Below, one piece after another: positions 5,995-18,877 of a DNA stretch of 64,000 nt (the first letter of the stretch is position 1; every line of letters begins with the position of its first letter). The DNA lies in contig NC_015914.1 in NCBI RefSeq assembly GCF_000222485.1, positions 5,128,001 to 5,192,000 of the forward strand, given 5' to 3'. The notes under the pieces were generated by a model, which was given only the letters and a program-made list of their open reading frames with translations, did not search any database and was not told the origin of the DNA. The stretch is from Cyclobacterium marinum DSM 745. Its GTDB lineage: Bacteria; Bacteroidota; Bacteroidia; Cytophagales; Cyclobacteriaceae. The position numbers were made by a program, and so were the translations under genes.

Positions 5995-8217
5995 TCAATC
6001 CGGCAATGAAAATGCCATTACCGATCCGGCAGTATTTTTCGAATTTCCCCCTACAGAAAGGACAATATATTGCTTGCCATTTACCTCATAGGTGCTGGGG
6101 TTGGCATTGGCAAATCCGGGTAGTTTGATTTCCCAACGTTTTTCACCGGTATCCTTATCAAAAGCCCTAAGTTGGTTATCACGTGTTCCTGCAATGAAAA
6201 CCAATCCTCCTGCGGTAACCATAGGTCCGGCAGATCCCCTTTCGCCGGTTTCCTCAGAACCGGTCTGGAGGTCCCGATTATTGCCCAATGGCACACTCCA
6301 AGCAAAATCTCCAGTATTTAGATCGATTGCATGTAGTTTGCCCCATGGAGGTTTTATTCCCGGCCTTCCTTCCGGATCTCTGAAATATCCATAGGCTGTA
6401 AGGTTCAGGTAACGGTTGAGGCTGTCTGTGTTTTGGATTTCCGTTGATGCTCCTTGGTTAGTATTGATCTCTTCCAATAAGGATTGTTCTTCTTGGGGAC
6501 TGCCACTGCTTTCGTTTTCAAATAGAAAGGCTAATATTGCCTCTTCCTTGGCCTTGTCTGTTATTACACTAGAGAAGCTGGGCATTTTTCCTCCTCCTTG
6601 TTTAATTTTAGCAAGCACATCTTCTTCGCTGATTCTTCCTTTTAACCCTACTAATGAAGGGTTACCTTGTTCATCTCCATTTTTGTCTCTACCATGGCAG
6701 CTGATACAATAGGTGGAATAGATCGATTCTCCCTGCTTGTAAACCGAGAGGTTAGTAATGGCATTCTCAGGCTCTACCTTTTTCATTCGCATGATTTCCG
6801 GTGAATCATTTGATCTGACATAAAAGAGACCGGTGGATGGATCGAAGGCCCCACCACCCCAGCTTGATCCACCACGTGAACCTGGAAACTGTAATGTCCC
6901 TTGTATGGAAGGAGGAGTGAAAATTCCTTCGTACCGAAGAGAACGAAATAACTTCACCAAAGAATCTCGAGAGGAAGGCGAGTAGTTGGCCAGATCTTTT
7001 TCGTCCAAAAATTGTCGGGTATAGGGAGCAGGTTTTGTGGGAAAGGGCTGAGTAGGCCAAGTTTCTTCGCCGGGAATATCGGAAGATGGAACCGGCCTTT
7101 CTTCGATGGGAAACAAAGATTTTCCTGTTTCTCTGTTCAATACATAAAGAAAACCTACTTTTGAAGTTTGGGCAACTGCATCCATTTTTTTGCCTTCGTG
7201 TTCTACAGTTACCAAGTTCGGTGGTGCAGGCAAATCATAATCCCACAAGTCGTGATGTACAGTTTGAAAGTGCCAGATGTAAGCTCCAGTTCGAGCATTC
7301 ACAGCTACTACGGAGTTGCCAAATAAATTCTTGCCTTTGCGATTTGCTCCATAATAATCGTAAGCAGGTGATCCGGTAGCAAAAAAGACCATGCCACGGG
7401 AAGCATCCAAACTAAAACCTCCCCAACTATTGGCACCACCACTGTATTTCCAGGCATCTTTGGGCCATGAATCATGCCCTACTTGTCCAGGCATAGGAAT
7501 GGTATGGAAGGTCCAGACCAATTCCCCTGAGCGTACATTGTAAGCCCTTACATGGCCTGGTTCTGCACCATAAAGTTCTGAAACCTCTGTGCCCAAAATC
7601 AATAAATCCTCGAAAATAATGCCCGGGGAAGTGGGTATTACCGAGATTTTATCCGGATCGCCACGCATGCCTTCGTTTAGGTCCACCTTACCTTCGTTTC
7701 CAAAAGAGGGGACCGGCATTCCGGTAGATGCATCAATGGCAAAAAGTTTATCACCCCCGGTAAACAGGATGCGTTGGTCCGAACCGTCTTCCCAGTACGT
7801 TACACCCCGTTTGACTCCACCTCCTCTTTCCCCATTAAAAGGATCAAAACTCCATTTTAATTCTCCTGTGGCGGCATCAACTGCAAATAACCGACCCCGA
7901 GCAGAGGTGGTATACAAAACATCATCAATGATAATTGGATTGCTTTCACTATTTTGTGGCCTGTCTCCTGTAATGCTGTCATTGGGTTCAAAAATCCACG
8001 CCAGAGCAAGTTTAGACACGTTTTCCTTGTTGATCTGATCAAGATGAGAGTAACTGGTACTTTCATTGTCGGCTTTATAAACTCCCCAATTGGAATAGCT
8101 GTCCCGCTTCTTTTGGCTACAACTTCCGCTCCAAAACAAAAAGAGAATAAAGAAAAACCATCCGTAATTAAATGGGCTTGCATATTGTGGCGGCTTCGCT
8201 GAGAAAATCACTTTCAT
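5995..8217 (-). CDS. PQQ-dependent dehydrogenase lipoprotein with inserted cytochrome c domain
   Basis: A 740-residue quinoprotein dehydrogenase of the glucose/quinate type. A hydrophobic segment ends in a lipobox with Cys33, so it is probably an anchored lipoprotein. The eight-bladed propeller is shown by repeated TGxxxW-type blade motifs (AATGELKWSFDP, RSGELVWTF, DTGEKRWEIKLPG) and the family signature HHDLWDYDLPAPPN (321-334). A class I cytochrome c domain is inserted between late blades: CISCH at 504-508 with probable axial Met545 in KMPSF. It should oxidise a sugar or alcohol outside the inner membrane and pass electrons through its own haem. The substrate cannot be read from sequence and no PQQ synthesis gene is in the window. 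The next gene upstream on the same strand encodes a related propeller-cytochrome. Confidence 0.85.
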   Translation of the reverse strand: MKVIFSAKPPQYASPFNYGWFFFILFLFWSGSCSQKKRDSYSNWGVYKADNESTSYSHLDQINKENVSKLALAWIFEPNDSITGDRPQNSESNPIIIDDVLYTTSARGRLFAVDAATGELKWSFDPFNGERGGGVKRGVTYWEDGSDQRILFTGGDKLFAIDASTGMPVPSFGNEGKVDLNEGMRGDPDKISVIPTSPGIIFEDLLILGTEVSELYGAEPGHVRAYNVRSGELVWTFHTIPMPGQVGHDSWPKDAWKYSGGANSWGGFSLDASRGMVFFATGSPAYDYYGANRKGKNLFGNSVVAVNARTGAYIWHFQTVHHDLWDYDLPAPPNLVTVEHEGKKMDAVAQTSKVGFLYVLNRETGKSLFPIEERPVPSSDIPGEETWPTQPFPTKPAPYTRQFLDEKDLANYSPSSRDSLVKLFRSLRYEGIFTPPSIQGTLQFPGSRGGSSWGGGAFDPSTGLFYVRSNDSPEIMRMKKVEPENAITNLSVYKQGESIYSTYCISCHGRDKNGDEQGNPSLVGLKGRISEEDVLAKIKQGGGKMPSFSSVITDKAKEEAILAFLFENESSGSPQEEQSLLEEINTNQGASTEIQNTDSLNRYLNLTAYGYFRDPEGRPGIKPPWGKLHAIDLNTGDFAWSVPLGNNRDLQTGSEETGERGSAGPMVTAGGLVFIAGTRDNQLRAFDKDTGEKRWEIKLPGFANANPSTYEVNGKQYIVLSVGGNSKNTAGSVMAFSLPD

Positions 8218-8281
8218 CTGATAGTTTAAGCATTAATAACCTGTAAATTAATAAAATTTTGGTTCAGGAGCACCTGTGCGT

Positions 8282-10084
8282 TTACTTGACTACCTTGGCT
8301 CTGATCTTGGAAACTTCACTCGGGCTTATGGCAGTAGCTTTGTTTCCCCATCTGTTACGAATATAAGAAGTTATGGAAGCCACAGCATGGTCGTCCAAAA
8401 TGTTAGCATGAGGAGGCATATAGCCATTGAAAGTTTTTCCACGAACTGTGATCTCACCTTGTATGCCGTTCAGAATTGATTCAACAAGTATTTCAGGATC
8501 CCCAACAACGCGCTCGGATTGGGCTAGGGGAGGGAACCTGTTATTGTCCCCTTGCCCATTTCGCTGATGGCAGGTAGCACAATAAGTGTTGTAAAGAATG
8601 CCTCCTTCAAGCAATGAACCTTTGTCCAAATTATCCACGCCTTCAATAGGGGTTTTGATATATGTTTTATGAGCGGTTTGCCGCTCCATTTCTTTAAGTT
8701 GTTCATCTCCAAACTCATCTTTACTCCCTTTGAACATGACCCGCCAAATTTTACCTTTATTGGAATCAGATATATAAAGGGATCCATCAGGACCTTCAGC
8801 CAAACCCATGGGTCGATATTTGGCATCTCCCGTATTTTCTACCGTATCTACCCCGGCAAAACCATCTGCAAATACCTCCCAGTCACTTGCTATACCATCA
8901 GCTAATGGAACGAAGCAGACAATAAATCCTGATTGTGGGTATGGGGAGCGATCGGTGGACCCATGAAATGCAATGAAAACGCCTTGTTTGTAGCGTTCCG
9001 GAAATTGGTTTCCCTGGTAAAATAATAGTTCCATAGGAGCCCAATGCCCAGGGAATCCAACTACAGGATTATCAAATTCTGAAGCCCTGCCTACTATCTT
9101 ACCATCACCACCATAACCTGGGGACAAAACATTTTTACCTTGTAAATGGTCATAATAGGCATAAGGCCAGCCAAAATCAGCTCCTTCAGTTATTTTTACT
9201 AATTTTTCTGATGGTAATACTGCAGCTTGCCAAGATGAATATAATTTTGGGTATAGGGTATGAAAATTATCTATTCCGTTGACTACTCCATAAAGTTGGT
9301 CATCGAGTGGACTCCAAGTCATGCCGACAATGCTACGTAGTCCGGTTGCAAATTTAACGCCATCTGATTGAACTTGCCCTTCTCTGTTGGCATCAAACTT
9401 CCAGACCCCTGCATTCATCTCACGTTCAGGACTGGGATCTAAACCTTTTCCTTCCGGAGTACCTGTTGGTCCAAATATCTCAATATCTTGCCCTGCATCT
9501 GAAGGGGAACCAAACGGAATGTACATGTTTCCTTTCCCGTCAAAAGCAGCAGGTTTCGTCGTATGCCAATTCCGGGCTACATTGGGATGGGTATCTGTAA
9601 GGATAACTTCCGTTCTGCTACTAGGCACCAACTCTCCAGGATTTAATTTATTTCTCAAAACTTGATTAACAGTGCTTGTATACAAGTATCCATTGTAAAT
9701 GGTAACTCCCACAGCAGAACCGCCAACATCTTCATAGTCTCCAAAACGGACTACGGAGTCGGCTTTTCCATCTCCATTAAGATCTCGAAGGCCTATGGTA
9801 CCTCCTTGTTTATCTCTGGAAAAGCGCAGTTTGGCATAAATGTCTCCATTATCGTTAACGGCAATATGTCGGGTTGGGCCGGCACTGTCGATCACCACTA
9901 AGGCTTCAAATCCACCCGGAAGAATTAAACCACCGTTATCTTCATCAGCAGTAGGTAATACTCCTTGCTTATTTTCACAAGAAAAGCTGATTAGTAAAAC
10001 GGTGAATAAGATGTAATTCCAAAACCTATGGCAAGCGGAAAAATTCGTATAAACAAATTTGAGTAATCTAAATAAGCGGGGCAT
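8282..10084 (-). CDS. Sorbosone dehydrogenase-like propeller lipoprotein with C-terminal cytochrome c
   Basis: A 600-residue protein with a lipobox ending at Cys36. Residues about 50-455 form a six-bladed propeller of the L-sorbosone/soluble glucose dehydrogenase type (GLRSIVGMTWSP, ADFGWPYAYYDH, GLAEGPDGSLYISDSNKGKI); a dockerin-like calcium loop, DLNGDGKAD, lies near residue 101. The C-terminal domain is a class I cytochrome c with CATCH (502-506) and axial Met556 in GYMPPH. It probably oxidises a sugar or aldehyde in the periplasm and donates electrons to the respiratory chain. It lies 64 nt upstream of the other propeller-cytochrome gene on the same strand, so the two may be co-transcribed and work on the same route. 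Confidence 0.8.
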   Translation of the reverse strand: MPRLFRLLKFVYTNFSACHRFWNYILFTVLLISFSCENKQGVLPTADEDNGGLILPGGFEALVVIDSAGPTRHIAVNDNGDIYAKLRFSRDKQGGTIGLRDLNGDGKADSVVRFGDYEDVGGSAVGVTIYNGYLYTSTVNQVLRNKLNPGELVPSSRTEVILTDTHPNVARNWHTTKPAAFDGKGNMYIPFGSPSDAGQDIEIFGPTGTPEGKGLDPSPEREMNAGVWKFDANREGQVQSDGVKFATGLRSIVGMTWSPLDDQLYGVVNGIDNFHTLYPKLYSSWQAAVLPSEKLVKITEGADFGWPYAYYDHLQGKNVLSPGYGGDGKIVGRASEFDNPVVGFPGHWAPMELLFYQGNQFPERYKQGVFIAFHGSTDRSPYPQSGFIVCFVPLADGIASDWEVFADGFAGVDTVENTGDAKYRPMGLAEGPDGSLYISDSNKGKIWRVMFKGSKDEFGDEQLKEMERQTAHKTYIKTPIEGVDNLDKGSLLEGGILYNTYCATCHQRNGQGDNNRFPPLAQSERVVGDPEILVESILNGIQGEITVRGKTFNGYMPPHANILDDHAVASITSYIRNRWGNKATAISPSEVSKIRAKVVK

Positions 10085-10628: not shown

Positions 10629-11600
10629 ATGCCCTCAATTGAATCCCAAATCCTACAATGTACAGGAGCGACAGCCATTCTTAAGACTGCACAGGTACAA
10701 ACCTTATGGAGTGGTTATGGCACTATAAAACGCTATACATTAGAAGGAGGGAAGCAGAGGTCGATAATTGTGAAGCATATTTTACTTCCCGAGACCGGTA
10801 AGCATCCCAGAGGTTGGAACACGGATTTGTCCCATCAAAGAAAAGTCCAATCCTATGCAGTGGAAAGTTACTGGTACCAACATTATGCCCCTTTAACCAA
10901 TCCGAATTGCCGTGTGCCACAATTGCTACATGCGGAAGCTGAAGGAAACATGCGATTGCTAATAATGGAAGACCTCAATGCTTCAGGTTTTCCTATCCGA
11001 CCGAAGCCTGAAACCGTTTCAATTTCGGCTGCCAAAAATTGCTTGACTTGGCTGGCAAATTTCCATGGGAAATTCATGCAAGTTAAACCTAAAGGACTTT
11101 GGGAAATAGGCAGCTATTGGTACCTGGATACAAGGCCAGATGAGTTGGCAAAAATGAAAAATAAATCTCTAAAGCAGATGGCTTCAGCCATTGATCGGAG
11201 GCTTAATGAAGCCAAGTTTCAGACCTTAATACATGGAGATGCCAAGGTAGCAAATTTCTGTTTTGGTCCCGAAAACCAGGTGGCAGCTGTGGATTTTCAA
11301 TATGTGGGCAAAGGATGTGGCATAAAGGATGTGGCTTACTTTATTAGCAGTTGTTTTGCAGAAGAAGACTGCCAACACTTTGAAGAGGAACTGTTAAACC
11401 ATTATTTTAATGTACTTGAATCAGCGATGGATAATCATATTGATTTTCAAATGGTTAAACAAGAATGGTCAGTGCTTTATAAATATGCTTGGGCAGACCT
11501 ATACCGCTTCCTTGATGGCTGGAGTACAGGTCATTGGAAGATGCATGGTTACAGTAAACAACTTACACAAGCTGTAATAGAAGAACTAAATAGTGAATAA
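10629..11600 (+). CDS. APH-like small-molecule kinase (ecdysteroid-kinase-like)
   Basis: A 323-residue protein with the aminoglycoside phosphotransferase fold. The catalytic loop is HGDAKVANFCF (from His202, Asp204) and the metal-binding motif is DFQ (Asp222) in place of DFG/DWE. The sequence VKHILLP near the N-terminus probably supplies the ATP-binding Lys. The overall pattern (LLIMEDLNASGFP, then IHGDAKVANF, then DFQYVGKGCGIKDVAYFI) is closest to ecdysteroid-kinase-like/DUF1679 proteins. It should phosphorylate a hydroxyl on a small molecule in the cytoplasm; an antibiotic is possible but nothing points to one. The next gene, an inositol monophosphatase-family protein, starts at the base after its stop, so a kinase/phosphatase pair with a shared substrate or pathway is likely. 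Confidence 0.75.
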   Translation: MPSIESQILQCTGATAILKTAQVQTLWSGYGTIKRYTLEGGKQRSIIVKHILLPETGKHPRGWNTDLSHQRKVQSYAVESYWYQHYAPLTNPNCRVPQLLHAEAEGNMRLLIMEDLNASGFPIRPKPETVSISAAKNCLTWLANFHGKFMQVKPKGLWEIGSYWYLDTRPDELAKMKNKSLKQMASAIDRRLNEAKFQTLIHGDAKVANFCFGPENQVAAVDFQYVGKGCGIKDVAYFISSCFAEEDCQHFEEELLNHYFNVLESAMDNHIDFQMVKQEWSVLYKYAWADLYRFLDGWSTGHWKMHGYSKQLTQAVIEELNSE

Positions 11601-12476
11601 ATGCTCGAAAAAACCGATTTAGAAAAACTTTGCAAGGAAGCCATTGAAGCAAGCATAGAAGCTGGGAAATTGATACAATCACAGGTAGATCAATCTTATA
11701 GGCAACAAGAAAAGCAAGGAGGATATTCCAAGGCATCTCAGGTAGTGACCGAAGTTGATTTCAAGGCCCAGGCCATTATACTAAAACATTTGGCTCCCAA
11801 TATAGCCAAGCATGATCTGGGTTTACTCACAGAGGAAGCTGCAGATGATGAATCCCGCTTAATTAAAGATTATTTCTGGTGCATTGATCCTCTAGATGGG
11901 ACACTGCCATTTACCGAGCAGCGTCCTGGATATGCGGTTTCCATTGCTCTTATTTCTCGATCTGGAGATCCTATGGTCGGAGTGGTCTATATACCTGATG
12001 AGGATTTGTGTTTCAGTGCGATTAAAGGAGAAGGGATTGTACGAAATGGTCAATCTTTTAGTCTGGCAAAATCTTCCGATGATGATTCATTAAATATTTA
12101 CATAGACAGAAGTATGCAGGACGCAAGTTATTTTCAAGAACTAAAAGCCAAGATAAGGCAATGGGCAGAAGGTCAGAATCTTACCAATGTGTACTATCAT
12201 ATTGGTTTTGGCGCAGTTCGGAACGCATTGTCCGTTTTGTCTCATAGAAATGCTTGCTATTTTAAATTCCCCAGAAAGGAAAAAGGAGGAGGGAGCATTT
12301 GGGATTTTGCTGCCACTCGCTTAATTTTTGAAGAATTGGCTTTGCCTGTAACCAATAGTAAAGGAGATAATTTACACCTAAATTCTCCTGACACCACCTT
12401 TATGAACCAGCAGGGGGTTGTGTATGCCAGTAACCGGGCACTTGCCAACCATTTAAAACATTTCAATTTTTCCTAA
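11601..12476 (+). CDS. Inositol monophosphatase-family phosphatase
   Basis: A 291-residue member of the IMPase/CysQ/FBPase superfamily. Metal ligands are visible: the TEE motif (77-79), DPLDGT (96-101) and WDFAAT (234-239). The N-terminal VVTEVDFKAQ matches the usual TxxD strand. The enzyme should hydrolyse a phosphate monoester such as inositol phosphate or 3'-phosphoadenosine 5'-phosphate using two or three Mg2+ ions. Between DPLDGT and WDFAAT the residues differ from well-known SuhB and CysQ, so I do not assign either. It abuts the kinase-like gene with no spacer and is the last gene of the pair; an AT-rich 196-bp gap follows before a convergent gene. Confidence 0.8.
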   Translation: MLEKTDLEKLCKEAIEASIEAGKLIQSQVDQSYRQQEKQGGYSKASQVVTEVDFKAQAIILKHLAPNIAKHDLGLLTEEAADDESRLIKDYFWCIDPLDGTLPFTEQRPGYAVSIALISRSGDPMVGVVYIPDEDLCFSAIKGEGIVRNGQSFSLAKSSDDDSLNIYIDRSMQDASYFQELKAKIRQWAEGQNLTNVYYHIGFGAVRNALSVLSHRNACYFKFPRKEKGGGSIWDFAATRLIFEELALPVTNSKGDNLHLNSPDTTFMNQQGVVYASNRALANHLKHFNFS

Positions 12477-12672: not shown

Positions 12673-13893
12673 CTAATTCATTTCTTGACTCAGGTAGTTT
12701 TTAAAAGGACTTTGCTGAAGCATTTCGGCATATGACAGGTAATCAATATAAGCTAGGTAAATTTCTTTTTTTAGCCTTGCAGCAATTGTTTCAGACTTTA
12801 TCATGCTCCTTTTCAACTGGATCATTACAACCGGATTGCTGCTTTTCATCTCTTGTAGCCTTTTTGCTAAAGCATCCACGTCCATACTTTCCAGTTGTTT
12901 TTCCAACTTTCTGTAACGTATAATAAATTGCTTGATCTTTTGTGAAGCCATATTAAATCCAGACTCTTGAAGGATATTTGCCTCATTCAACTCACCCTCA
13001 GCTTCGATCATTTCTAATTTTCTTTGCGTGATTTTGTTTTTATTAGGATTGAAAATAGGGATAGTTACACCCAATCCTATGCTCCATGGGCTTCGGTCTT
13101 GTTCAATTCGGTATTGCTCATATTTGGCTTGTAAATAGCCCATATCAATATTGGTTTTTTCCAATGCCATTTCGGATTTTGCCAATGCGATTTTCTTTTC
13201 TCGATAAGCAATTTCTCCTTCTCCGGTATTGATTTCTCCCAAAGCAGTGATCATTTGTAGCTTATCTATTGAAATTAGATCATCCATTGACCAGGAAATG
13301 GTCTGATTTTGGGCGTAGGGATACAATTTAGCAATTGTATTGATTAACTTATCTTCTTCAAAGTATAAATCTTCCAAAGAGGCGGTTTTTTCAATCTGCT
13401 CTATTTTTAACTCTGCATACTCATTGGCGTCAAAGAAACTTGAAAACTGTTGGGCTTCTAGCATACTAACTAATGCATCAGAAAGTTTTTGGTCATCTTC
13501 TTTCAAAGTTTTCTGCTCTTGTAAATAGGTCCACTCAATAATGGTTTCATACCGAATCTTTAACATGTTCTTTAGTTCACGCTGACGATCCAGACTGAGC
13601 AATTCTTGATAGGTATTAAAATATTCATTATTTCTTTTTACTTCCCAAGGGTTAGAAGGCTTAACTCGAAGGGCATATTCTTGACGCCCACCATCAAGCT
13701 GGTTACTTTCTGTACGTAGTTCCAATTCTTTGACTGGTGCCAGGCTATAGGGGGAAGCATTTAGATAACTGTCTTGTTCATCAAAAGACCGTATCAAAGG
13801 ATCTTCCAATACAGCTGTTAAAAATGATTCCATTGACACCTGAGCATGTGAAAACATGGGCAAGATTAAGCATAATATTAAAAGACACCTCAT
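12673..13893 (-). CDS. TolC-like outer-membrane channel protein
   Basis: A 406-residue secreted protein: signal peptide MRCLLILCLILPMFSHAQ followed by long heptad-rich helices with ILxR-like repeats and the repeat pair typical of outer membrane efflux proteins (first half to about residue 190; second half with GLGVTIPIFNPNKNK near 285). It is slightly shorter than usual TolC proteins (about 430-480). The expected role is an outer-membrane/periplasmic tunnel joined to the HlyD-like adaptor encoded 2 nt upstream. It is the last gene of a four-gene operon running from 16815. No ABC, RND or MFS pump gene is present, so its inner-membrane partner is probably the DUF4956 protein. Confidence 0.75.
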   Translation of the reverse strand: MRCLLILCLILPMFSHAQVSMESFLTAVLEDPLIRSFDEQDSYLNASPYSLAPVKELELRTESNQLDGGRQEYALRVKPSNPWEVKRNNEYFNTYQELLSLDRQRELKNMLKIRYETIIEWTYLQEQKTLKEDDQKLSDALVSMLEAQQFSSFFDANEYAELKIEQIEKTASLEDLYFEEDKLINTIAKLYPYAQNQTISWSMDDLISIDKLQMITALGEINTGEGEIAYREKKIALAKSEMALEKTNIDMGYLQAKYEQYRIEQDRSPWSIGLGVTIPIFNPNKNKITQRKLEMIEAEGELNEANILQESGFNMASQKIKQFIIRYRKLEKQLESMDVDALAKRLQEMKSSNPVVMIQLKRSMIKSETIAARLKKEIYLAYIDYLSYAEMLQQSPFKNYLSQEMN

Positions 13894-13895
13894 AA

Positions 13896-14882
13896 TTACC
13901 TGATCAAAACCTTTTCTCCATTGAAGAAGGCATTTTCTCCGGGAATCTCTATAAATACCTGTTGACCAAATGCCTTTATAGCTGTGGATTTTTGTAAAAT
14001 TTCAGGCAATTCGCTTACTGATCCATATCCAATGACTCTACCTGCTACTAGGTTTCTTTGTTGGTCATAGGAGGCTACATTAACTTCCTTGCCAACGCCA
14101 AAAGTGCTTGCTTTTTTTCCAACCAAATAAGCTACTACTGTGGTAGGATGAAGTGGATTAATTTCTAGCAATGGGGCATAAGCATCTACCTGTTCACCAG
14201 GTTTTACATACACTTTTTCTACTACACCGGAAGCCGTTGCATATTTATTTAATTTACCTTTTTCTGTTTGAAGAATCTTAAGTTCACTCTCCAATAGTTG
14301 GATTTGATTTTGCAGGATATGTTGATCGGCTTCACTTTCCTGAAGTAAATCTTCAATTTTAATGGCTTGGGCTTCCAAATGTCTTTCTTTTTGTACCTTT
14401 AACGAATTTAATTTTCTGGCCATAGGAGCACTGGCTTCAACTGCTTTTTCCGTAATAAATTGTTTGGTAAGGGCTTCATTCATATGCATTTCACTTTCCA
14501 GTTCCATTACCTTTTCGTCCAGCTCTTCTATTTCAATGCCATTTTCAGCCTTTATGTAAGCAATTTTTGCATTGGTAAGTTTGGCTTTTTCTCGCAATTC
14601 GGCTTTCGCCATGGAAATACGGTTGGAAAGGCGGGCAATGTCTACTTCTAATTCCTCACTGCTAAGTTCAACTAATAATAGCCCGGCTTCTACTTCCATT
14701 CCAGGTACCACATTGACTGATCTTACCAACGCTGTTTTTTCTGTTTTTACTTTGTATTCAGTAGTTTCTGCAATACCAATGGAAGCTTCACCACTTCCTT
14801 TGAAGTATTTGGCACTGATATACAACATGCTTACAAGCATGCACCCAATAAATACATAAAACCAATTTGTCATTTTCATCAT
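13896..14882 (-). CDS. HlyD/RND-type periplasmic adaptor protein
   Basis: A 328-residue protein with one N-terminal membrane helix (about 6-23), a split lipoyl domain (VRSVNVVPGMEVEAGLLLVE and ASGVVEKVYVKPGEQVDAYA), a long coiled coil between them (about 85-215) and a beta-barrel C-terminal part. This is the membrane fusion protein layout. Its start ATGA overlaps the stop of the DUF4956 gene by 4 nt and its stop is 2 nt before the TolC-like start, so the three are made together. The adaptor should connect an inner-membrane component to the TolC-like tunnel. The C-terminal domain is short compared with HlyD of type I secretion. Confidence 0.8.
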   Translation of the reverse strand: MMKMTNWFYVFIGCMLVSMLYISAKYFKGSGEASIGIAETTEYKVKTEKTALVRSVNVVPGMEVEAGLLLVELSSEELEVDIARLSNRISMAKAELREKAKLTNAKIAYIKAENGIEIEELDEKVMELESEMHMNEALTKQFITEKAVEASAPMARKLNSLKVQKERHLEAQAIKIEDLLQESEADQHILQNQIQLLESELKILQTEKGKLNKYATASGVVEKVYVKPGEQVDAYAPLLEINPLHPTTVVAYLVGKKASTFGVGKEVNVASYDQQRNLVAGRVIGYGSVSELPEILQKSTAIKAFGQQVFIEIPGENAFFNGEKVLIR

Positions 14883-15550
14883 CTATTTAATGTTTCATTG
14901 GAAGCTAATTTCAATTGAATAACTCCTTCGATATTTTCAAGGGCTTTTGCAAGGTCAGCTGTATTTGTATCTTTTTTTAAAGTTACTGCATATTGATACC
15001 TATATTGTTTGTCTGCATTTTGAGAAATGGACAATTCTCTAAATTCTATGCAATAAGTAGCAAGAAGTGATGTAATTTGCCTGATACCCTTAGCATCCAC
15101 CATTAAAAAGGTTAGCTGGCTATTATGCGTAAAACTTCGAAAAGGTGAAAAATGAAGCATAAAAGCAATCAAACAAAAGATAATTGTTCCGACAAAAGAT
15201 ATGGTATATCCATAAACTCCGATGGCCAATCCTGTACTTAATGCTGCAAACAAAAACAAAACGTCTCTTGGATCATCAACCCTGGTTCGAAACCGGATGA
15301 TGGCCATGGCACCAAAAACTCCCAAACCACGAGCCAGGCTGTCGCCTATGGCCATCATTACCAATGAAGTGACTACGGCTCCAAGCACCAGCGATTGGAA
15401 AAAATTATTGGGATAATATGTTCCTATAAAGGTTAACCTATGGGTTATGGCTATCACAGAAGATAGAATAAAGGCCCATATAAAGCCATAGGTTATATTT
15501 ACCAACTGAGGATATTCATATACAGGCTGGTCCGGAAATAATTCAAACAT
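14879..15550 (-). CDS. DUF4956 inner-membrane protein
   Basis: A 223-residue protein with four or five membrane helices in the first 145 residues and a soluble C-terminal domain of about 80 residues with an ACT-like alternation of strands and helices. The conserved DUF4956 core AMAIIRFRTRVDDPRDVLFLF is clear (a 21-residue block read in two parts: AMAIIRFRTRV and DDPRDVLFLF). The layout recalls MgtC/SapB proteins, which also carry an arginine-rich motif between helices and an ACT-like tail; that is inference. DUF4956 genes usually sit with CotH or VTC polyphosphate polymerase genes. Here it is coupled (4-nt overlap) to an adaptor and a TolC-like gene, suggesting it is the inner-membrane part of an exporter or an envelope sensor. 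Confidence 0.8.
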   Translation of the reverse strand: MFELFPDQPVYEYPQLVNITYGFIWAFILSSVIAITHRLTFIGTYYPNNFFQSLVLGAVVTSLVMMAIGDSLARGLGVFGAMAIIRFRTRVDDPRDVLFLFAALSTGLAIGVYGYTISFVGTIIFCLIAFMLHFSPFRSFTHNSQLTFLMVDAKGIRQITSLLATYCIEFRELSISQNADKQYRYQYAVTLKKDTNTADLAKALENIEGVIQLKLASNETLNR

Positions 15551-15561
15551 ATTTACCTTTT

Positions 15562-16815
15562 TTAGTCGTTAGATTGTCCCGGTGAAGGTGATGCTAAAGC
15601 ACTCCAGGATTCCCCACCATCTGAAGTCCTTCCAAAAGATATATCTTCACTTTGTTCCTCAAAAGAATAAGAATCTATGGTCCTTCCGTCAACATAAAAC
15701 AAACCTATAGCTTCTCCATCTGAGCTCAAGCTAAAATCAAGATGTAGCGTTCCCTGATCCGTGGAACCGTCGGCCCAAAGTAGTAAATAACCTCCCGCTG
15801 GTATGGTAGTGGCCTCAGGATCATCTGAAGGTATTTGGTACATAAATGGATCTTCCACATCATCTGACACGTACATTCCTCCAATATTTATGGCTGAGGT
15901 TCCGGCATTGTATATTTCTATCCAATCATCAAACTCTTCTTCACCGCTATCTGTATCCGGACAGCAATTCTCATTACTGGCCATAAACTCATTTATAAAA
16001 AGTTGGGGCAATACATCTGTATTGATTTCATACGATTCTGTATTTTCGGGCGCACTTGAAGGTTTGTAGGACGAGCTTCCATCAGTACCTATGACTTCAA
16101 CATAATAGGAAACAACAGCCTCTGTTGAAATTGCAGGAATTGTTCCTACATATGAAGTACCACTCTCATAGGTCATTTCTACCACTGTAAAAGCGCCATC
16201 ATCCAGCTGATAGTACAGATTCATTTCTGCCACAGTAGCTGTTGAAATTAATTCTGCCCAAATTTCTACACTTTCATCAAGTCCTGGTACTAAAGGGTTA
16301 CGATCGATAGAATTTATGGCAGGTGAACTACCATCACCATTTGAAGTACCTTGAGTTACCGTACCGGTTATCGCCCAGTCCCCAGATCCATCCGGAAATC
16401 TCGCATAAGATTGGCCCTCATCTAAATCAGGAAACTCCACTTGGTCAAGGACTGTTCCTACTCCATTTTCCAATACAACCAATTCGCCGGAGGAAGAGAG
16501 CTTAAAATTTGTGTTCAGTCCTGTTCCTAAATCATTACATAAAAAAACCAAATAACTCTTAGAGGCAATGCTTGTTCCAGAAGGAATGGCATATTCATTG
16601 CCCTCATCTGATAAAGTGTATCCTCCCAAGTCCACACTTGTTTCCTGTGGATTATACAGTTCAATCCAGTCTTCACCGGATGCATATATTTCATTGATAT
16701 AAATCTCATCAGCCACAGTGTCGGGCAAAATTTCTTCGTCTTCAGTACAAGCAAAAGAGAGTAGAGGAATAGCAAGGAAAAATTTAATGCGATTAAGGCT
16801 TTTAATCGTTACCAT
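15562..16815 (-). CDS. Lipoprotein with two lamin-tail domains
   Basis: A 417-residue lipoprotein with lipobox LLSFAC (Cys23). The longest frame begins at 16926, but this start gives a clean signal and a TAnnTTTG-type element (TAATTTTG, 16874-16867) lies inside the longer frame. Two lamin-tail domains are visible: residues 38-145 (INEIYASGEDWIELYNP) and 272-380 (INEFMASN, then DDWIEIYNAGTSAINIGGMY). Each ends in the usual DG-x-W-x-GxSN-like tail. An Ig/CBM-like region with repeated aromatic strands lies between. Lamin-tail domains are often attached to CotH spore-coat-like kinases, but none is present. It lies 12 nt upstream of DUF4956 and begins the operon, so it may be a surface-exposed partner or cargo of the exporter. 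Confidence 0.7.
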   Translation of the reverse strand: MVTIKSLNRIKFFLAIPLLSFACTEDEEILPDTVADEIYINEIYASGEDWIELYNPQETSVDLGGYTLSDEGNEYAIPSGTSIASKSYLVFLCNDLGTGLNTNFKLSSSGELVVLENGVGTVLDQVEFPDLDEGQSYARFPDGSGDWAITGTVTQGTSNGDGSSPAINSIDRNPLVPGLDESVEIWAELISTATVAEMNLYYQLDDGAFTVVEMTYESGTSYVGTIPAISTEAVVSYYVEVIGTDGSSSYKPSSAPENTESYEINTDVLPQLFINEFMASNENCCPDTDSGEEEFDDWIEIYNAGTSAINIGGMYVSDDVEDPFMYQIPSDDPEATTIPAGGYLLLWADGSTDQGTLHLDFSLSSDGEAIGLFYVDGRTIDSYSFEEQSEDISFGRTSDGGESWSALASPSPGQSND

Positions 16816-16874: not shown

Positions 16875-17305
16875 CCCCTCGCTGAAAATCAAAAAAACAT
16901 AAATTTTTTAAAGAATTGGAACCCAAATAGTGCTATAATAATCAGGTTCACAGCCAAATAAGGTACAATCCAAAAATTCTTTTAGTTAAGAGATAATGTT
17001 TTGGAAAGAATAGGTCCCATCCACTGCTTCATTTCAATTTCCATGGATAGCTCGATAGCACTCTTAAGTAGAGAGAAAAAAGGAAATTAAAAATTTTTAG
17101 AATTAGTAGTTTTTACTAGGTATCTTCATGGAAAGCATTCTCTAGTAGATTTTCAAATCTTTGTTTTTTACTTCTCAAACTTTCTTAATCATGGAGGAGA
17201 GTACGCTATGTTCAAATATTAGGAGTTAATTGGAGTTTCAAACTAAATGTATTTTAAAGTTTATTTGATTTAAAATTAATCTAAATACCACTAATTATTT
17301 ATAAC
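16875..17305. other. AT-rich intergenic region between divergent genes
   Basis: About 430 bp between the lamin-tail operon and the Sel1-repeat gene. It is strongly AT-rich and I see no gene, repeat or terminator in it. It must contain the promoter of the plus-strand gene. Confidence 0.5.
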
Positions 17306-18877
17306 ATGAACATTAAATTATATTTAACTATACTATTTATATTTATATCCTTTCTCTCAAATGCACAGAATTACACCTTTGAGATTTTAGGCCCTATAGT
17401 GACCGAAAAGGAATATAAGATTTTTGATCATAAATTTAAATACGTAAGAGGATATAAACAAAAAAGGCTAGATAATCTTGTGAAAAAGGGAAATATTGAT
17501 TTTTTAAAAAAAGTAGCCTCATTCAAGTATCAAGATTTTTTCTTTGGTAATAAAAAAATGTATAAAATAAATAAAGAGGACTCTTTTCCTTGGTTTATGG
17601 CAGCATCAAACCTTGGGGATTTTGAATCAAAATATAATATAGGATTATTTTATTTATTTGGACATGGCGTAACAAAGGACTATAAAGCTGCATTTACAGC
17701 TTTTAAGGAATTGACGGAAAAGGGATATGACCCAGCAAGAGAGATGCTAGGATATTGTTATTATGAAGGATATGGTGTGGAAAAGGATATTGATTTGGGA
17801 TCATACTATATTTTATCACTGAGGGATAGTTTGATACAACCCCTAGCTAAAGTAGCTCTAGGTAAAATATACCTTGAAGGAAATAATATTAAGAAAGATA
17901 CTTTAAAGGCAGTAGAAAAATTCCATGAAAAAATCAGGTTTCATATAAGTCAAGATATCCTTTTAAATTTATTGTATTCCAAATCCAGGGTAAGTGTTAA
18001 GAAAAAACTTATTGAATTAGCGGGTAACTCATCTAGTGCTTTAAGCTATATTTATAGTAGATCTATTGAGCGTAATTCCTCAAAATTGAGTTCAGAGGTA
18101 TTTTATGATTATTCTAATATTATTTTAAGAAGCCCTTTCATAAATAGAACTTGGGAACAAACCCAAAAAGCGATTGATACTTATGTGATTTATAAAGATA
18201 CTGTTAGCCATTCTATAAATGAAGATGATTGGTTCTATGGATATAATCTTTATCAAATAAATTATTTAAGAGGAGATCCTAATTTAGCTACAACCGGGGT
18301 TCAAGTTATGGAGACTGCTGCAACAAATGATAATCAGTTTGCGAGAGAATTGTCCAATATTTATAGAAATTCTGCGTACCAACATATTAGAGATTCAAAA
18401 AAGGCTAGTTTTTGGGAACTTAAAGCAGAACTTTATGAAGATTCAAATTCAGATATTGCAACAATATTAGCTTTGGCAACTGGGAACAATATGGAAAAAG
18501 ATGTAACAAAAGCTTATCAATTAGCTAAAATAGGTTTTGAACGGACATCTGTATATGATAAAGATTATAATGCTTTTTATTATTTGTATTATAGCTTATG
18601 TAAAATATCTAACATGGCCAATTCGGAAGATTGCCTTAAATTAGAAAAAGCATATGCTGAATACATTTATGCTTGGTCTTGTAATAAAGAAGGAAAAACA
18701 ACCTGTACTACTTGTAATGGTTCTGGCAATACACCAACATATAGAAGTAATACAAGGCAATGTACAACTTGCAATGGATTTGGATACCTAAAGTGTAAAC
18801 CATACCTTAATTTGCCAAAAGACTATATTACTGAGTTGGTACCTTCAGATTACAAGAATATTTCCCATTTACCATAG
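17306..18877 (+). CDS. Secreted Sel1-repeat protein with C-terminal CxxCxGxG zinc motifs
   Basis: A 523-residue protein with signal peptide MNIKLYLTILFIFISFLSNA. Sel1/TPR-like helical repeats are visible at about 95-200 (NLGDFESKYNIGLFYLFGHG, then EMLGYCYYEGYGVEKD) and again near 380-410. The last 60 residues carry two CxxCxGxG units (CTTCNGSG and CTTCNGFG) and a final Cys, resembling half of a DnaJ zinc finger, which can bind one zinc ion. DNA here is far richer in A and T than the flanking genes, with many AAA, TTT and ATA codons, suggesting acquisition by transfer. Function is unknown; Sel1 repeats usually mediate protein binding. It stands alone, with a 17-nt gap to the next longest frame and 44 nt to the next likely start. 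Confidence 0.6.
   Translation: MNIKLYLTILFIFISFLSNAQNYTFEILGPIVTEKEYKIFDHKFKYVRGYKQKRLDNLVKKGNIDFLKKVASFKYQDFFFGNKKMYKINKEDSFPWFMAASNLGDFESKYNIGLFYLFGHGVTKDYKAAFTAFKELTEKGYDPAREMLGYCYYEGYGVEKDIDLGSYYILSLRDSLIQPLAKVALGKIYLEGNNIKKDTLKAVEKFHEKIRFHISQDILLNLLYSKSRVSVKKKLIELAGNSSSALSYIYSRSIERNSSKLSSEVFYDYSNIILRSPFINRTWEQTQKAIDTYVIYKDTVSHSINEDDWFYGYNLYQINYLRGDPNLATTGVQVMETAATNDNQFARELSNIYRNSAYQHIRDSKKASFWELKAELYEDSNSDIATILALATGNNMEKDVTKAYQLAKIGFERTSVYDKDYNAFYYLYYSLCKISNMANSEDCLKLEKAYAEYIYAWSCNKEGKTTCTTCNGSGNTPTYRSNTRQCTTCNGFGYLKCKPYLNLPKDYITELVPSDYKNISHLP

Follow-up and report, generated by a model that had tools for sequence, protein, structure and literature searches.

A DUF4956-HlyD-TolC gene unit in Cyclobacterium marinum as a candidate supply line to surface CotH kinases

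Gene content of the locus

The window analyzed here is a stretch of 64,000 nucleotides (G000:C1:5128001-5192000) of the genome of Cyclobacterium marinum DSM 745, which comprises 6.22 Mb in one contig. The window holds a unit of four genes on the minus strand, which encode a protein with a lamin-tail domain (LTD; PF00932), a DUF4956 membrane protein (PF16316), a periplasmic adaptor of the HlyD/EmrA type and a TolC-fold outer-membrane channel protein. The LTD gene (15562..16815) encodes 417 amino acids from its ATG; the list of open reading frames (ORFs) offers a TTG at 16926 as another possible start. It is followed by the genes for DUF4956 (14879..15550, 223 amino acids), the adaptor (13896..14882, 328 amino acids) and the channel protein (12673..13893, 406 amino acids). 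Successive genes are separated by 11 nt, overlap by 4 nt and are separated by 2 nt, respectively. From this spacing, the four genes are probably co-translated. All four genes, with their coordinates, gaps and strand, were found as described in an earlier note on this DNA. No ABC, RND or MFS pump gene was present inside the unit.

Properties of the encoded proteins

The LTD protein matched PF00932 with 119.4 bits (Pfam cut-off 34.3). Its start resembles that of a lipoprotein, with a cysteine followed by TEDEEI. For the adaptor, HlyD_3 scored above threshold (26.3 bits, cut-off 22.2) and HlyD_D23 slightly below it (29.8 bits, cut-off 30). A profile of the adaptor family was nearest to EmrA (4tko_B, E 1.4e-12). 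Adaptors of about twice the usual length (663-752 amino acids) were seen in three VTC-bearing loci of the Desulfobacteraceae type (L169, L193, and L208).

The product of the fourth gene had no match to the Pfam family OEP, a close relative at locus L039 reached 18.1 bits (cut-off 22), and a profile of the TolC-like family gave no match among PDB sequences. The AlphaFold2 model of the protein had a mean predicted local distance difference test score (pLDDT) of 88.8. In a Foldseek search of the PDB, it matched 43 chains at E ≤0.001, the best being TolC (9a2x, E 3.2e-11), and it resembled TolC, OprM, CusC, and their kin. Because the predicted structure matches TolC/OprM-type structures, the product of the fourth gene is assigned as a TolC-fold channel on the basis of the model. 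In Cyclobacterium qasimii (L091 and L149) the channel gene appears as two fragments, 130 and 237 amino acids long.

DUF4956 matched PF16316 with 43.1 bits (cut-off 30.6). In its AlphaFold2 model (pLDDT 82.2, predicted TM score 0.69) five long helices are followed by an ACT-like domain, and residues R86, R88, F101, and G107 were invariant in 28 aligned sequences. The earlier note had proposed an ACT-like cytoplasmic tail and an MgtC-like topology. The former was borne out in part. The model and the fold search place an ACT-like tail at about residues 140-221, with the elements E-H-E-E-H-E from 144 to 217 and a match to the ACT structure 3ibw_A at E 5.6e-4; however, ribosomal S6 and NikR folds score similarly, and the Pfam family ACT_4 gave 15.1, below its cut-off of 27. 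The MgtC-likeness was weak and below threshold with both profiles applied, namely Pfam MgtC (12.3 bits, cut-off 31.4) and NCBIfam PRK09977 (NF007431; 32.5 bits, cut-off 214). A fold search with the whole DUF4956 model listed almost solely C-terminal matches and was uninformative on the membrane part. The single sequence found no match in the PDB, and the profile found weak matches to ACT-like and other domains (best E 0.15).

Conservation of the gene order

The DUF4956 sequence of the window was searched in 295 genomes of the Cyclobacteriaceae, with matches in 79. The 62 genomes with a match at E 5e-37 or better are referred to as cassette genomes, and the gene neighborhood was examined in 54 of them (the window, L039, and L082-L133). 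DUF4956, adaptor, and channel genes were directly consecutive, in that order and on one strand, in 53/54 loci, the exception being L127. The three core genes are a conserved unit, and an order kept to this extent is beyond chance. An arrangement peculiar to C. marinum is excluded by the same count. In L091, L108, and L126 the adaptor or the channel reads as two pieces, and the most extreme gaps (-95 and -61 nt) reflect the choice of start by a longest-ORF script.

The earlier note had called for a count of how often LTD, CotH, and VTC genes accompany such units. In 24 of the 54 loci, the gene immediately upstream of DUF4956 encodes an LTD protein of <500 amino acids, and 14 of these 24 proteins showed, by a loose pattern, a lipobox-like cysteine followed by at least three acidic residues among six. 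Members of the CotH/LTD group occurred in 36 of the neighborhoods. The profiles for LTD and CotH cross-match, since some proteins hold both domains, and separate counts of the two carry some error; ten representatives were checked with Pfam. Beyond this group, no neighboring family was found in more than six loci, an ABC ATPase family being present in six. It follows that the set is not completed by a local pump: none of the pump families is a recurrent neighbor in the 54 loci examined, although no search was made for a pump encoded far away. The claim of a pump-less set held for the unit and its surroundings. Genes beside distant cassettes were also considered as missing partners, but those encountered read as unrelated, such as a short-chain-dehydrogenase-like gene downstream in L156 (read from the sequence).

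These results bear on the idea that the adaptor and the channel use an ordinary pump encoded elsewhere, with DUF4956 acting as a membrane-bound sensor or regulator and not as a transporter. The ACT-like fold of the C-terminal part and the weak similarity to MgtC-type proteins would suit such a regulator, and EmrA, to which the adaptor is nearest, serves an MFS pump. However, the neighborhoods show no recurring pump family, the adaptor and channel genes come immediately after DUF4956 in all but one of the loci, and the order DUF4956-HlyD-TolC is kept together with VTC in several phyla (see below). We regard this explanation as rather unlikely.

Association with CotH

The C. marinum genome encodes one CotH protein (240.7 bits). 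Its gene lies at about 5110049-5111527, outside the window, and ~29 kb separate it from the closer edge of the unit. The protein shares 68-69% identity with CotH proteins whose genes adjoin the unit in two other genomes (G308 and G156). In the three other Cyclobacterium cassette genomes, a distance of about 16 to 43 kb separates CotH from the unit on the same contig. Within the examined neighborhood, CotH was found in 27/54 loci. Residues N350, D352, W377, and D378 of the C. marinum protein are kept in 8/8 aligned CotH proteins and fall within the stretch aligned to the CotH structure 5jd9; we take them to be catalytic, with the conserved Asp pair of the active site.

Secretion tails of the PF18962 family were found in 3/4 long CotH proteins scanned, and 5/29 CotH proteins had lipobox-like starts with acidic residues by the loose pattern. 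Because they carry such tails or starts, the CotH and LTD partners are probably located outside the cell. The earlier note had proposed the LTD lipoprotein as a surface partner or cargo. Since some CotH proteins of the group also carry a lamin-tail domain according to Pfam, the role of surface partner is probably the likelier one. Secretion of the LTD or CotH proteins themselves by the conduit, similar to type I secretion but without an ABC protein, would fit the adjacency of the genes. We consider it very improbable, as these proteins carry their own signals in the form of lipobox-like starts or type IX secretion tails.

CotH was present in 62/62 cassette genomes and in 22/80 control genomes (Fisher p 8e-22, with related genomes counted). 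The controls were Cyclobacteriaceae genomes without a DUF4956 match, comprising eight congeners and the next genomes by handle number. In a comparison of the 16 genera with both states, CotH went with the cassette in 14, with two ties (sign test 1.2e-4). On the cassette side of genus g101, CotH was present in 5/5 genomes. In Cyclobacterium, it was present in 4/4 genomes with the cassette versus 0/8 without; these four genomes possibly belong to a single subclade.

Another explanation is that the unit is a dedicated system for efflux or protein export, linked to CotH through a shared surface-living, polymer-degrading lifestyle and not through a joint pathway. In its favor, CotH lies away from the unit in about half of the loci and is present in 22/80 relatives that lack the cassette, and the genomes compared are related. 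The difference between 62/62 and 22/80, the agreement of 14 out of 16 genus contrasts, and the CotH or LTD genes that adjoin the unit across numerous lineages and phyla argue against this explanation, which appears quite unlikely to us.

Presence and absence of VTC

The earlier note had suggested kinship with the group of CotH, LTD, and the VTC polyphosphate polymerase, and loss of the enzyme from this branch. The kinship is supported by the constant presence of CotH in cassette genomes, the upstream LTD genes, and the VTC genes in units of other phyla. The missing enzyme is VTC, which had no match in the C. marinum genome and no trace in the loci described below. CotH was not lost, as it has been kept in C. 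marinum and throughout the cassette genomes.

VTC matches were found in 3/62 cassette genomes, two above the cut-off and the third below; in G358 the VTC gene adjoins another DUF4956 gene. A six-frame search for VTC remnants in the 54 cassette loci returned none at E ≤0.05. Because VTC is in any case rare among the Cyclobacteriaceae, the case for its loss rests on the tree and on wider relatives.

For a wider scan, the best 80 of at least 518 related loci in named genomes were used, some genomes recurring from the family survey. Among these 80, VTC was encoded in the locus in 24/26 cases outside Bacteroidota and Balneolota, and the remaining two, L165 and L167, end at a contig end. The usual order outside Bacteroidota was DUF4956-HlyD-TolC-VTC. 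In five loci (L162, L163, L170, L172, and L174) a CotH gene lies upstream or an LTD gene downstream of the VTC-bearing unit. In contrast, neither VTC nor a remnant was detected in any of the 54 loci from Bacteroidota and Balneolota (six frames, E ≤0.05). The VTC genes of L034 and L223 were recovered by six-frame search, while L049 and L050 were scored as DUF4956 without VTC by profile alone.

When 89 DUF4956 proteins were placed in a tree, 56 VTC-less rows formed one starred group (support 99 in the Shimodaira-Hasegawa-like approximate likelihood ratio test) among VTC-bearing lineages. The 89 rows remained of 157 after removal of sequences that were <190 amino acids long or shared >70% identity with a retained sequence. 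It is a quick tree without an inferred root and has a long-branch warning in another part; it lacks L040, L186, and L213, and L223 is wrongly labeled in it. The simplest history consistent with this topology would be a single loss of VTC in the Bacteroidota/Balneolota branch.

Of 38 further cassette genomes, those of the Balneolota type (five) had no VTC elsewhere in the genome. In lineages that do have VTC elsewhere, it may act in trans. In one such genome (L227, 1492-3335), the VTC gene lies beside a ribBA-type gene and the VTC-less cassette is located elsewhere. Polyphosphate could also be made without VTC in C. marinum, because its genome has two PPK matches. The second of these (G000:C1:1668471-1668977) is divergent and is found in the four Cyclobacterium cassette genomes; the eight without the cassette have one PPK. 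As a general substitute for VTC, the second PPK was rejected, since two PPK were found in just 4/20 cassette genomes outside the genus. The pattern in Cyclobacterium may be a subclade effect.

Comparison with other gene combinations

A different combination was found in other Cytophagales, where six loci (L032, L033, L034, L036, L038, and L135) have the order HlyD-VTC-DUF4956-TolC; the VTC of L032 was confirmed by Pfam (136 bits). These clusters (e.g. L032, L038, and L135) have the same parts as the window unit plus VTC, but start with the adaptor. In a tree of 35 adaptors with two outside adaptors, their adaptors group apart from the window type, a hint at two separate events in which an adaptor was combined with DUF4956. 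The adaptor of L132, a VTC-less locus, is placed with VTC-bearing ones in this tree. Two loci of another family (L037 and L040), with the order HlyD-DUF4956-TolC in genomes that lack VTC, are a separate VTC-less case.

With tripartite EmrA/HlyD-TolC exporters the unit shares a coiled-coil adaptor and a TolC-fold channel in one gene unit, but here DUF4956 takes the first place and the ABC, MFS, or RND pump is missing from the unit. With the VTC-DUF4956-CotH group (e.g. L043, L046, and L140) it has in common DUF4956 and the presence of CotH and LTD genes in the same genomes, often at the same locus; it differs in the lack of VTC and the additional adaptor and channel genes. The units of Fibrobacterota, Bdellovibrionota, Desulfobacterota, and other phyla (e.g. 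L162, L164, and L174) have the same core order, often with CotH or LTD beside it, but carry VTC after the channel gene, whereas the window unit has none. In the yeast VTC complex, the VTC enzyme is joined to a membrane part by which polyphosphate is moved. That complex handles one membrane, compared with two here, and its VTC enzyme is missing from the unit studied here.

Proposed function of the unit

To our knowledge, it is unclear how kinases outside the cell obtain a phosphoryl donor in Gram-negative bacteria. The unit and its CotH company suggest a so far undescribed route by which the cell surface is supplied. We tentatively propose, with somewhat less than even confidence, that DUF4956, the adaptor, and the TolC-like protein together make up a conduit across the envelope, which serves surface CotH kinases and LTD proteins. 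A conduit for a phosphate-rich donor is the simplest joint reading of the surface partners, the envelope-spanning adaptor and channel, and the presence of VTC in the unit elsewhere.

In such a conduit, DUF4956 would occupy the usual place of the pump in the inner membrane, and an anionic, phosphate-rich substrate would enter at its arginine loop. By helix count, the loop with R86 and R88 (IIRFRT) would be cytoplasmic if the ACT-like domain is cytoplasmic. The adaptor and the channel would span the periplasm and the outer membrane and pass the substrate to the surface. Where VTC is part of the unit, it would produce polyphosphate as the substrate, and this synthesis would push export. For the VTC-less branch, the substrate might be polyphosphate synthesized by a different kinase (PPK), or else some other phosphoryl donor used by CotH.

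Several observations weigh against a donor conduit. CotH lies outside the examined neighborhood in 27/54 loci and occurs without the cassette in 22/80 relatives. Counts of genomes overstate independence, so that the genus contrasts are the safer measure. VTC was found in 0/20 cassette-less genomes of the family searched, and its absence is therefore not special to the cassette; 19/38 further cassette genomes have VTC elsewhere in the genome. There is no known energy source for export without VTC, and five helices with an ACT domain would be a sparse design for a transporter.

A bolder form of the proposal, which we consider doubtful, is that VTC-DUF4956-HlyD-TolC represents a new class of envelope machine. 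It would make polyphosphate in the cytoplasm, export it through both membranes in a single step, and feed surface CotH kinases to which ATP is out of reach. The Bacteroidota/Balneolota branch would have lost the polymerase but retained the conduit to deliver a donor synthesized elsewhere. If true, such a machine would explain how kinases outside the cell get phosphate. A conduit tied to CotH, and elsewhere to a polyphosphate polymerase, makes the question of the donor testable by simple deletions. For DUF4956, a domain of unknown function, the candidate role would be that of an inner-membrane partner of an adaptor and a channel.

Neighboring genes in the window

Convergent to the unit, the window contains a gene for an ecdysteroid-kinase-like (EcKL) phosphotransferase with 0 nt to an inositol-monophosphatase-family gene (10629-12476). 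The two were considered as substitute enzymes and rejected, as locus L039 has the same core without a match to either. A Sel1-repeat protein with a CxxC-rich C-terminal stretch is encoded at 17306-18877, its match to the DnaJ zinc finger being weak. Two large minus-strand genes are located at 5995-10084. Their translations contain CxxCH heme motifs, and from the sequence their products resemble dehydrogenases with a cytochrome c part.

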